Source: Thermococcus stetteri (lineage in GTDB: Archaea > Methanobacteriota_B > Thermococci > Thermococcales > Thermococcaceae). Taken from it: a DNA stretch of 64,000 nucleotides. The stretch lies in contig NZ_JAGGKB010000003.1 of assembly GCF_017873335.1 (NCBI RefSeq), positions 186,001 to 250,000 of the forward strand, given 5' to 3'. The notes below the pieces were generated by a model that had not been told where the DNA came from, did no database searches, and saw only the letters and a program-made list of their open reading frames with translations. This document shows positions 36,642 through 52,201 of the stretch, piece by piece. The position numbers and the translations under genes are program-made. Position 1 is the first letter of the stretch; each line of letters opens with the position of its first letter.

Positions 36642-36713
36642 TAAATTCCCCCCTCAACTTTTAACGCCCAAAGTTTATAATGTCTTCTCCGCTTTAATTG
36701 CACGGGTGATTTA

Positions 36714-37313
36714 ATGAAAAAGCACGGGATTATCCTTTTGATACTGCTCCTCACTAGCTTCATAGCGGGATGTATTGGAAGTGCAAATTCGGGAACCACA
36801 GCTACCTCATCTACAGGCCCTCAGACGCCATCTGATAAATACGTGGATATTAACGGGACAAGGATATACCTCAATGAGATTCACTTTTACATGTACGGGA
36901 TGAAAACCTGCCCGCACTGCAGGCGCATGCATGAGTGGATACCAAAGGAATTTGGGGAGAACTCCCTTACGTACTATGAGATTCTGGACAACAGGACTAA
37001 CCAGGAGCTGTTCAACCAGCTTGCTCAGTTGATTGGCATAACCGGCGTTCCGGCTATAGCGATAACCTACAATGGCACTATACAGGCAGTGTTTGAGGGC
37101 GAGTTCAACGTATCGGCAACCCCCGAGATAATTGCAACAGCCCTGAAGAAAAACAGCTGTATCCTCATTGTTCATGGTAGAGGATATCTCCTGTCGCGTG
37201 ATGATCCTAAGTCAGAAGTCTTCCTCAATGCGCTTCAGACGATTTTCGTGGAGCACAAAAGCGTTGATGTCCAGAGCGTTCTTGCAAAGCTGAAATCGAA
37301 CTCCACTGAGTGA
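36714..37313 (+). CDS. Thioredoxin-fold lipoprotein (CPHC)
   Basis: A 199-residue exported protein. The lipobox FIAGC gives Cys20; a Ser/Thr-rich linker follows (22-40). The redox motif CPHC is at residues 66-69 in YGMKTCPHCRRMHEW, and the cis-Pro region is TGVPAIAI. The membrane-anchored thioredoxin domain would face outside and could receive electrons through the CcdA protein encoded next. A TTTATAAT box lies near 36673 and GGTGATTT precedes the ATG. Confidence 0.85.
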   Translation: MKKHGIILLILLLTSFIAGCIGSANSGTTATSSTGPQTPSDKYVDINGTRIYLNEIHFYMYGMKTCPHCRRMHEWIPKEFGENSLTYYEILDNRTNQELFNQLAQLIGITGVPAIAITYNGTIQAVFEGEFNVSATPEIIATALKKNSCILIVHGRGYLLSRDDPKSEVFLNALQTIFVEHKSVDVQSVLAKLKSNSTE

Positions 37314-37337
37314 ACCCTTTGTTTTCAACCTTTTGTT
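37313..37337 (+). promoter_or_regulatory. Extended SurR-type site upstream of ccdA
   Basis: The sequence reads AACn5GTTn3AACn5GTT (AAC 37313-37315, GTT 37321-37323, AAC 37327-37329, GTT 37335-37337). It contains the published SurR consensus GTTn3AACn5GTT exactly and adds its mirror half-site. It lies 37 bp before the CcdA start and overlaps the last base of the thioredoxin gene. SurR is the sulfur-responsive redox regulator of Thermococcales. Confidence 0.65.
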
Positions 37338-37374
37338 TTAGAAAAGGAGAAAAACTGGCGGTACAACTATCTCC

Positions 37375-38103
37375 ATGCGAGGGGAAATCAAGCTACTGTT
37401 GATAATCCTGCTACTGTCCTTTGGAATCAGCGCACTTGCTCTATACCTGCTGGGAATCCCCGGGTTCATCCCCCAGTTCTATGCCCTCTCAATGAGCGAC
37501 TCTATAAACCCATGCACCTTCGTTATATACACGATGCTCCTGATAGCGCTGTCAGTTAGAAAGGTTGAGAAGAAGCAGCTTTACATAGTCGGTTCCGCGT
37601 TCATCCTGGCCGTCTACATTTCATACTACCTTCTCGGAGTCGGCCTCCGGTACCTCGGGCAATACATTCCCCTCTGGTTCGCGGGCTTCCTGGCAATAGC
37701 GTTTGGAGCCTACACCATTGTTACCGGCATCATGGAGAAGTCGAGGATAGCTGACAAGAAGGGCATTAGAAAGAAGATGTTCAGTACCGAGGCGACTTTT
37801 CTAAGCTCCTTCTTCCTCGGTGTCGTAGTCTCGACTACTTTACTTCCATGCTCGGCGGGAAGCTACCTTGTCTATGCAACGATTATATCCCACGGTAGCA
37901 GGGCGCTCGCATTCCTTCTTCTGGTCCTTTACAACGTAATTTTCGTCCTGCCTTTGGTGCTCATCCTGCTCACTATGGGAAGCATCTCCGAGAGCAAACG
38001 CTTTTCCCAGGCCATTGTCAGGCACAGCAGGGAGCTTTCGGTCGTCGCTGGAATACTTTTGATAGGGATTGGAGTGTGGGTACTCGTGGGAGGCTCAGTT
38101 TAG
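37375..38103 (+). CDS. ccdA: CcdA/DsbD-type transmembrane thiol transporter
   Basis: A 242-residue membrane protein with six predicted helices. The two essential cysteines are Cys47 (SDSINPCTFVIY) and Cys159 (TTLLPCSAGSY), as in CcdA, which passes electrons from cytosolic thioredoxin to outside thiol proteins. The adjacent CPHC lipoprotein is the likely acceptor. It overlaps the convergent Lrp gene by 4 bp. Confidence 0.88.
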   Translation: MRGEIKLLLIILLLSFGISALALYLLGIPGFIPQFYALSMSDSINPCTFVIYTMLLIALSVRKVEKKQLYIVGSAFILAVYISYYLLGVGLRYLGQYIPLWFAGFLAIAFGAYTIVTGIMEKSRIADKKGIRKKMFSTEATFLSSFFLGVVVSTTLLPCSAGSYLVYATIISHGSRALAFLLLVLYNVIFVLPLVLILLTMGSISESKRFSQAIVRHSRELSVVAGILLIGIGVWVLVGGSV

Positions 38104-38667: not shown

Positions 38668-40012
38668 ATGGTGAACACCGGTATGACACCTGAAGAGGTC
38701 GTTGAGAGATACTCTCGTGTCATTTCAAGAGCGTCCTACGTTACGTACGTGCCCATTGTTCCGTATAGGGCGGAAAACGCCTTCGTGTGGGACATAGAAG
38801 GGAGAAAATACATAGACTTCCTCGTAGATGCCGCCGTCCAGAACGTCGGCCATAACAACCCCAGGTTGTTGATGCAGTGAAGAAAACTGCTGACAGATTG
38901 CTCCACTTCACGTTCATTTATGGCTTCCCGGTCGAGCCGCTGCTTCTCGCGGAGAAGCTGAGGGAGATAGCACCGATTAATGGAGCAAAGGTTGCCTTTG
39001 GCCTGAGCGGGAGCGACGCAAACGACGGCGCGATAAAGTTCACCAGGGCCTACACTGGGAGGAGGGCCATAATAGGCTACCTCAGGAGCTACTACGGTGC
39101 GACCTATGGGGCCATGAGCGTTACAGGCCTCGATTTCGAGGTCCGCGCGAAGGTCGGGCAGCTCAGCGATGTCCACTTCATACCATTCCCAAACTGCTAC
39201 CGCTGTCCATTCGGTAAAGAACCGGGGAAATGCAGGATGGAGTGCGTCTCATTCCTCAAGGAAAAGTTCGAAGGTGAAGTACACGCCGAGGGAACTGCTG
39301 CGCTGATAGCGGAGGCAATCCAGGGCGATGCAGGAATGGTAGTGCCCCCAGAGGGATACTTCAAAGAGATCAAAAGGATACTTGATGAACACGGCATACT
39401 GCTCGTCGTTGACGAGGTTCAGAGCGGCCTGGGAAGGACTGGAAAGTGGTTCGCCATAGAGCACTTCGGTGTCAAGCCCGACATTATAACACTAGCAAAA
39501 CCTCTAGGCGGCGGACTGCCCATAAGCGCAATAGTTGGTAGAGAGGAGATAATGAACTCATTACCCCCGCTGGGACATGCGTTTACGATGTCGGGAAATC
39601 CTGTCGCGAGCGCCGCCGCTCTGGCGGTAATCGAAGAGATCGAAGAGAAAAACCTGCTCAAGAGAGCTGAAGTACTTGGAGAGAGGGCAAAAAGACGACT
39701 GGAAAAATGAAAAAGAAACACGAGCTGATAGGCGATGTTCGCGGACTAGGCCTCATGTTGGGCGTTGACCTCGTTAAGGACAGGGAGACGAAAGAGAGGG
39801 CATACGACGAGGCCAAAAAGGTCGTCTGGAGGGCCTACGAGCTGGGCCTGATTGTGGCCTTCCTCCAGGGCAACGTCCTGAGGATAGAGCCGCCCCTGAC
39901 CATCGAGGAAGAAGTGCTTGATGAGGGATTAGACAAGCTCGAGGAAGCTATAGAAGACGTTGAAGAAGGCCGCGTACCCGATGAAGTCGTTGAGAAAGTT
40001 CAGGGGTGGTAA
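38668..40012 (+). pseudogene. Class III PLP aminotransferase/amino acid racemase, split by two frameshifts
   Basis: Three overlapping frames make one enzyme of about 445 residues: [20 protein letters not shown]..., [22 protein letters not shown], the PLP lysine in [12 protein letters not shown], and a C-terminal [12 protein letters not shown]...VLRIEPPLT. The cysteine cluster [12 protein letters not shown] is typical of Thermococcales ornithine aminotransferase/broad racemase proteins. One G is missing at about 38869 and one A at about 39706. Each break creates a GTGA/ATGA stop-start overlap. The true start may be ATG 38683, which has GGTGA upstream. Confidence 0.85.
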
Positions 40013-51184: not shown

Positions 51185-51435
51185 AGTCCTCCCTCCATGT
51201 AGCGTGCGAAGGCTATGACACCGCCAAAGGCCAGCATCGCGTAAACCAGGGCTACGTCGAGGAAGATGATGCGCTTGTAGTAGAGGGCAAAGAGCACCAT
51301 CAGTCCGGTTGTTATCGTGGTCATGATGTCTACCGCCACCAGCCTGTCGGGAGTCGTTGGGCCGACCATGAAGCGGTACATGCTGAGCAGTGTCGCTATC
51401 GCTATGAGTGCCAGATAAATACCTACCCCTATCAT
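51181..51435 (-). CDS. mbxB: Mbs subunit B (MrpF-like)
   Basis: An 84-residue, three-helix subunit with GPTTPDRLVAVDIMTT, the MrpF hallmark including the conserved Asp. Overlaps mbxA by 4 bp. Confidence 0.9.
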   Translation of the reverse strand: MIGVGIYLALIAIATLLSMYRFMVGPTTPDRLVAVDIMTTITTGLMVLFALYYKRIIFLDVALVYAMLAFGGVIAFARYMEGGL

Positions 51436-51965
51436 CCGAAGATCACCTTCAGGAATTTTTCAAAGGGCCTTGTGATGTTCTCGGAGGCCTTCTCAACGTG
51501 TTCCTCTTCGGTTTCGGCATGGAGAACCTCGTCAGGAACCCATATCCAGTGGATGAAGTAGTTGTCGCCGTCGACGTCGAGGGTTATCGTTCCAGGCGTG
51601 AGGGTTATCGAGTTCGCCAGGGAGAGCTTCCCCGGGTTGGTCTTGAGGATGGTCTTGCAGTGGACGATGCCGGGCCTTATGGGCCTCTTGGGGTGGAGAA
51701 CCCTGTAGGCAACATCAAGGTTGGCCATAATCATTGCCCACAGGAAGTAGGGCGCGTAGGCTATCGCGTAGGCAACCCTCTTGGGATGGAGGTTCGCCAG
51801 TCCTCTCGTTGTAAAGATTGGGTAAGTTATCGCAGCCACTATCGCTGATAGAACAAAGCCGAAGATGAGCTCCTGTTCGTCGAGGCTTGCCGTCAGTGCC
51901 AGCCATATTAAAAACAGGATTATCAGGGTGTAGAGGTACCTGCTAACTTTACTCGCTTCCTCCAT
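51432..51965 (-). CDS. mbxA: Mbs subunit A (MrpE-like)
   Basis: A 177-residue first subunit of the operon. Two N-terminal helices are followed by YAPYFLWAMIMANLDVAYRVLHP and the cytoplasmic domain NSITLTPGTITLDVDGDNYFIHWIWV, typical of MrpE. Its promoter carries the SurR site at 52006-52022. Confidence 0.9.
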   Translation of the reverse strand: MEEASKVSRYLYTLIILFLIWLALTASLDEQELIFGFVLSAIVAAITYPIFTTRGLANLHPKRVAYAIAYAPYFLWAMIMANLDVAYRVLHPKRPIRPGIVHCKTILKTNPGKLSLANSITLTPGTITLDVDGDNYFIHWIWVPDEVLHAETEEEHVEKASENITRPFEKFLKVIFG

Positions 51966-52005: not shown

Positions 52006-52035
52006 AACAGGAGGTTTCCAACGATACCTTATAAA
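52006..52035 (-). promoter_or_regulatory. Mbs operon promoter with SurR site
   Basis: On the minus strand TTTATAAGG (52027-52035) is the TATA box. GTT-GGA-AAC-CTCCT-GTT (52022 down to 52006) matches the SurR consensus GTTn3AACn5GTT exactly and lies between TATA and the expected transcript start. That position suits repression released when SurR's CxxC is oxidised by sulfur, consistent with sulfur induction of this operon in Pyrococcus. Confidence 0.75.
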
Positions 52036-52201
52036 CGTTATCTGCAAAGAACAAAGGTTTAGAACTTTTGGTTAAAATGGGGGTATCTAATTTGTCCAGC
52101 AGTCCAAATAAGCGGGCATTAAAGTCCCTTCTCGTTGAAAAGCTCCCAAAAATCTTCCAAAAATATTAGAATGAGAGTAGTGAAAGAAGCAGAAAATTCG
52201 G

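Follow-up and report, generated by a model that had tools for sequence, protein, structure and literature searches.

The window, that is, the whole 64-kb stretch of Thermococcus stetteri DNA analyzed here, carries a gene for a CPHC thioredoxin-like lipoprotein followed on the same strand by a ccdA-like gene, with an extended SurR-type palindrome at the junction of the two. The features of this locus are as follows.

36674 to 36679, plus strand: TTTATA, TATA box of a separate promoter that serves the lipoprotein gene
36714 to 37313, plus strand: gene for the CPHC thioredoxin-like lipoprotein (199 aa); it precedes the site and, in the proposed model, is outside its control
37313 to 37337, plus strand: extended SurR-type palindrome AAC-n5-GTT-n3-AAC-n5-GTT, AACCCTTTGTTTTCAACCTTTTGTT, an exact match to the pattern
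37313 to 37315, unstranded: extra symmetrical half-site AAC, partly conserved
37321 to 37329, unstranded: inner palindrome GTTTTCAAC, which is the SurR short motif GTTn3AAC and the most conserved part of the site
37340 to 37344, plus strand: AGAAA, putative BRE-like element just after the site (AAA kept in 64–65 of 65 loci, G in 56 of 65)
37348 to 37355, plus strand: AGAAAAAC, putative weak, A-rich TATA-like element at a fixed distance (AAAA kept in 59–65 of 65 loci)
37375 to 38103, plus strand: ccdA-like gene (242 aa), in whose product NPC (Cys47) and LPC (Cys159) are invariant

The pattern AACn5GTTn3AACn5GTT, with the SurR consensus inside it, is present at 37313–37337 exactly as originally predicted. 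Because the four-half-site pattern is its own reverse complement, each strand carries an exact copy of the long motif GTTn3AACn5GTT published for SurR. The site had been placed between the CPHC lipoprotein gene and ccdA; the flanking genes are as described, but the lipoprotein gene's TGA stop codon (37311–37313) ends on the A with which the site starts, so that the site begins inside the upstream gene and is not strictly intergenic. It is the single exact match in the 64-kb window, and 100 dinucleotide-preserving shuffles yielded none. When up to two mismatches were allowed, the window contained 3 matches versus 1.54 expected, which limits the significance within the window to the exact form. 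Elsewhere in the window, three overlapping reading frames at 38668–40012 together make up an aminotransferase-like gene; with two apparent frameshifts, it looks like a pseudogene or a sequence error.

The ccdA-like protein of the window is polytopic and had no match in a Pfam/NCBIfam profile search or in a profile search of solved structures. PF02683 was matched by 2 of its 46 relatives and, by hand tally at E ≤ 0.1, at 19 ccdA loci across the 94 Thermococcaceae genomes, with one match above the cut-off; remoter relatives from other phyla matched PF02683 and also PF11139. Cys47 and Cys159 are invariant in all 46 sequences, one in each inverted repeat, and both are located at helix starts in a structure model with a mean pLDDT of 79.7. 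Two membrane cysteines, one per inverted repeat, are the signature of CcdA. A Foldseek search with the model gave no match at E ≤ 0.001, and the best Z score in VIA-align was 7.4, within the stated background, with unspecific helical transporters as the matching rows. On the basis of the weak profile matches and the two invariant cysteines, the protein is likely to be CcdA-like. It is a membrane protein that probably carries electrons out of the cell. The thioredoxin/glutaredoxin-like domain of the lipoprotein scored 24.7 and 21.9 bits in Pfam, both slightly below the cut-offs. A relative of the CPHC lipoprotein is present in 91 of the 94 genomes, which fits a family-wide CcdA–thioredoxin pathway.

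SurR and its sites in Thermococcaceae genomes

The SurR-type identity of the site, as proposed at the outset, is supported by its sequence, and the same genome (2.03 Mb, 7 contigs) encodes SurR. The protein scored 402.5 bits against NF047699 (cut-off 250), P. furiosus PF0095 is the closest to it among solved structures, and CTEC, a CxxC near the N-terminus, was read in the translation. SurR exceeded the curated cut-off in 91 of the 94 family genomes, this one included.

The extended pattern occurs at 6 places in the whole genome, compared with none for a reversed control pattern. Inspecting these sites locus by locus, we found one in the intergenic region of mbh and SHI, both known SurR targets, one at a carboxymuconolactone-decarboxylase-family gene (a Pfam-backed name), and one at a presumed M48 peptidase gene (a name read from the translation). 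Across the 94 genomes, 251 extended sites were present versus 18 for the reversed control, and 85 genomes had at least one. The long motif GTTn3AACn5GTT occurs 48 times in the T. stetteri genome (reversed control, 6), also at surR/pdo, mbs, and hypF, and 2986 times in the 94 genomes (reversed control, 1201).

The ccdA site accounts for one more of the six extended places, and the last two are at gdhA and a cobN-like gene. An exact extended site (L004, 1501–1525) lies upstream of gdhA, encoding glutamate dehydrogenase as read from the translation, and ahead of a good TATA. Another (L005, 1501–1525; G000:C3:179562–179586) precedes a cobN-like gene, likewise named from its translation, beside nrdD/nrdG; near-identical strings of this site and promoter occur in several other family genomes. 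Within the window, a further long motif at 2386–2402 is followed by TTAGAAA and TTTTATTA, a ccdA-like layout before a gene at about 2452. In the 94 genomes, the ratio of the long motif to its reversed control, uncorrected for base composition, was 3.9-fold in clade g1 and 1.3-fold in g4, with no excess in g5 and g6; it looks as if the SurR regulon has been enlarged in some clades.

Conservation of the site and its probable target gene

A ccdA match was obtained in 89 of the 94 family genomes, and 86 loci had readable upstream DNA; G003 and G088 (contig edge nearby) and G049 (fragmented) were left out. Conservation of the motif upstream of orthologues had been set beforehand as a refuting test: the site is kept directly upstream of ccdA in 65 of the 86 Thermococcaceae loci. 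At the 12 fixed letters, 12 of these sites are exact, 37 have one mismatch, 13 have two, and 3 have three; G024 (L008), for example, has an exact site and G026 (L035) has one mismatch. Within 110 nt upstream of ccdA and on the strand of the gene, exact GTTn3AACn5GTT was found in 47 of the 65 loci and exact GTTn3AAC in 60, and neither was present over the same distance in the remaining 21 loci, which were assigned to the 'no site' class by hand after their upstream regions had been seen. At up to one mismatch, the real pattern matched in 49 of the 65 loci, whereas each of 500 scrambled-letter decoys matched in at most one.

We then compared the columns of the alignment. With the site at each locus taken as the best match within −105 to −20, a choice that somewhat favours the core columns, the mean pairwise difference over the 65 loci was 0.14 in the core columns, 0.48 in the spacers, and 0.72 in the 5′ flank. 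In a dereplicated set of 26 loci, one per 85% CcdA cluster, the corresponding values were 0.15, 0.55, and 0.73. Each of the six fixed letters of GTTn3AAC is kept in 63–65 of the 65 loci (24–26 of the 26). The extra 5′ AAC is less constant than this inner palindrome (A 31, A 53, and C 61 of 65; A 19, A 21, and C 25 of 26), indicating a genuine additional half-site that is kept less strictly than the published core.

Tallied by hand, the site is present in 55 of 56 loci in clade g1, 2 of 2 in g2, and 8 of 8 in g3, where the third GTT is frequently ATT, and in 0 of 13 in g4, 0 of 6 in g5, and 0 of 1 in g6. The loci that lack the site although SurR is present are all 19 of g4 and g5, L041 in g1, and L091, the fused locus of g6; the last has a two-mismatch match at −50, within its longer fused reading frame.

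The original prediction treated the CcdA/thioredoxin pair as one regulated unit. Using a TATA hexamer list chosen after the promoters had been viewed, and a search stretch of 45 nt for lipoprotein genes versus 28 nt for ccdA, we found a TATA-like hexamer in all 62 testable lipoprotein promoters; none of the 65 site-bearing ccdA promoters had a strong TATA hexamer where one would be expected. The long SurR motif is absent from all 62 lipoprotein promoters. In 20 genomes the lipoprotein gene is located away from ccdA; in none of them does a long motif come within 200 nt of the lipoprotein gene, and the ccdA gene of each belongs to the site-bearing set. Since the lipoprotein gene possesses a TATA of its own but lacks the long motif, and since the site stays at ccdA when the two genes are separated, we assign the site to ccdA. 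Co-regulation of the lipoprotein gene by the site was accordingly rejected, and the idea of a jointly regulated pair was not borne out: of the two genes, ccdA alone is downstream of the site. The ccdA and lipoprotein genes overlap in the sister clades g4 and g5, where neither has the site, with SurR present.

The short motif GTTn3AAC occurs in 19 of 41 lipoprotein promoters of the site-bearing set. In g1 lipoprotein promoters such as that of L022, the TATA box GTTTATAAC itself spells GTTn3AAC, so that counts of the short motif near Thermococcales starts may be inflated. We counted these occurrences as coincidence, the motif being part of that TATA box in the promoters inspected.

Promoter layout and alternative readings

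In all 65 loci, the site is followed by GAAA and then, about 12 nt past the site, by an A-tract, at the same distances and in a gap-free alignment; the spacings from the site to GAAA, the A-tract, and the ATG are independent of the best-match choice of site. We infer from this alignment that GAAA and the A-tract represent the BRE and TATA elements. By these aligned elements, the site is upstream of BRE/TATA at ccdA, and no second SurR site was found downstream of them. The first in-frame ATG is 37–40 nt past the site in 51 of the 65 loci, and in 2 more an ATG at this distance is a later candidate. The remaining ATGs are mainly 47–49 nt past the site, with an in-frame GTG at 38–39 in several of these loci. 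A Shine-Dalgarno-like GGDGRD precedes the ccdA start in just 10 of the 65 loci. The short promoter-to-ATG spacing suggests that the ccdA mRNA is leaderless. Initiation at the ATG itself is plausible, since in T. kodakarensis some 14% of mRNAs lack a leader (PMC4247193).

At L041, the sole site-free locus of g1, ccdA begins with TTG and is preceded by a strong TATA (TTTTTATA). The absence of a strong TATA at site-bearing ccdA promoters, together with its presence at L041, is as expected if the promoter needs an activator.

A position rule is given in PMC12162507 and PMC12401011: a SurR site upstream of BRE/TATA activates, and one on or after BRE/TATA represses. The original prediction set ccdA alongside the Mbs operon of the same window, whose promoter has the following features.

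51432 to 51965, minus strand: first gene of the mbs cluster
52006 to 52022, minus strand: long motif beside the mbs TATA, on the side nearer the start, a comparison for the repressed geometry
52057 to 52073, plus strand: second long motif, on the opposite side of that TATA

The two long motifs at mbs flank the TATA, which is the repressed arrangement, whereas the ccdA site lies upstream of BRE/TATA, as in the activated type. Shared behaviour with the Mbs operon is thus not supported by the layout, and ccdA and mbs should respond to sulfur in opposite directions. The hypF promoters of the same genome resemble that of ccdA in having a long motif, TTGGAAA, and a TATA-like element a few bp on; they differ from it in their better TATA (TATAAA) and in having no exact fourth half-site. 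In a T. onnurineus study (PMC4463584), HypF protein falls in sulfur-grown cells, with ratios of 0.26, 0.41, and 0.18. On the indirect evidence of the published position rule and the analogy with hypF, ccdA is expected to be on without sulfur and off with sulfur. Reading the sequence in this way, we put at roughly 0.7 the probability that 37313–37337 works as a SurR operator through which the ccdA-like gene is activated, both binding and activation being predicted.

The main rival is that SurR binds the site and represses ccdA, as at mbs and pdo, in which case ccdA would rise with sulfur. SurR both activates and represses in Thermococcales (PMC12162507), and the site could overlap an undetected promoter. 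However, a few bp separate the end of the site from the conserved GAAA and 12 bp separate it from the A-tract, and no second site follows, in contrast to the flanking sites at mbs; and the lack of a strong TATA hexamer in all 65 site-bearing loci is what an activated promoter would be expected to have. We consider repression unlikely.

The stretch begins at a stop codon and is T-rich in many relatives, and archaeal terminators are T-runs. It could therefore be mainly the terminator of the lipoprotein gene, with the SurR match as a by-product. The conservation pattern argues otherwise: the GTT/AAC letters are kept and the T-rich spacers are not, and some loci with a different upstream gene (L046, L054) have C/G-rich spacers with the core intact. 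The distance to the ATG is near-constant, and a scan that models bacterial terminators found no stem-and-T terminator. Such an origin seems very unlikely.

Slightly less probable again is action by a different regulator that recognises a similar sequence, for instance Phr, an ArsR-like heat-shock regulator. The Phr motif includes AC-n5-GT and requires A at +25 and +28 of the site. Most of the family genomes listed have a second, weaker match to the SurR model that could be Phr, and the T. stetteri SurR itself also scores weakly against the Phr model. Where the Phr motif calls for A, however, the ccdA loci have T at +25 in 54 of 65 and G at +28 in 56 of 65, and their conserved letters match the published SurR long motif. 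The least probable alternative, a chance match or functionless relic, draws on the abundance of short SurR motifs in these genomes and on a long motif barely above control in g4 and g5, and is countered by retention of the site across three clades against diverged flanks.

Predicted sulfur response and relation to the SurR regulon

Under SurR activation of ccdA, reduced SurR would, without elemental sulfur, bind the 25-bp palindrome just upstream of BRE and the weak TATA and aid the loading of TBP/TFB, giving a leaderless ccdA mRNA that may start at or near the ATG. CcdA would then take electrons from thiol carriers in the cytosol and hand them to the CPHC lipoprotein on the outer side of the membrane. 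When sulfur is present, the SurR CxxC is oxidised, a redox switch described in the literature, and SurR would leave the site; ccdA would then drop along with the hydrogenases, and mbs, nsr, and pdo would rise.

As to why such control might exist, sulfur may shut a leak through which electrons from cytosolic thiols would otherwise reach polysulfide outside, by way of CcdA and the CPHC lipoprotein and without energy gain; hence the tie, through SurR, of ccdA to the absence of sulfur. Since TrxR–Pdo reduces SurR and CcdA would draw on the same thiol pool, ccdA (SurR-activated) and pdo (SurR-repressed) would form a feedback loop on the SurR redox state, and the clades with overlapping genes would have no such valve. 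We offer this proposal as speculation and think it rather doubtful.

If SurR activation of ccdA is correct, the sulfur switch reaches across the membrane and controls reducing power for extracytoplasmic thiols, in the opposite sense to Mbs, and SurR control is not confined to hydrogen and sulfide enzymes. Because SurR is a thiol switch reduced by cytosolic carriers, the site would also offer a route to test the separation of internal and external thiol redox when sulfur appears, with the site-free clades as a natural comparison.

ccdA is not named in the examined parts of the published promoter tables of PMC12162507 and PMC8595942, and a literature search, whose coverage did not extend to Lipscomb 2009 and 2017, found no statement linking SurR and Thermococcales ccdA. 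A T. piezophilus paper counts 170 promoters with SurR motifs, among which ccdA may figure unremarked. We therefore describe ccdA as a new predicted target within the known SurR regulon and do not claim the link as unpublished.

The CcdA-like protein resembles the CcdA/DsbD transmembrane family (PF02683) in being a helical membrane protein with a Pro-Cys starting a helix in each half, but differs in that the window's own protein has no profile match. The ccdA site is identical in letters and spacing to those of the SurR regulon of Thermococcales (mbh, SHI, SHII, mbs, nsr, pdo, surR), of which the same genome has sites at surR/pdo, mbh/SHI, and mbs, and it is the most complete palindromic form of the known SurR site. 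By contrast with the listed targets, which are electron-flow enzymes, ccdA encodes a predicted extracytoplasmic thiol-electron carrier.
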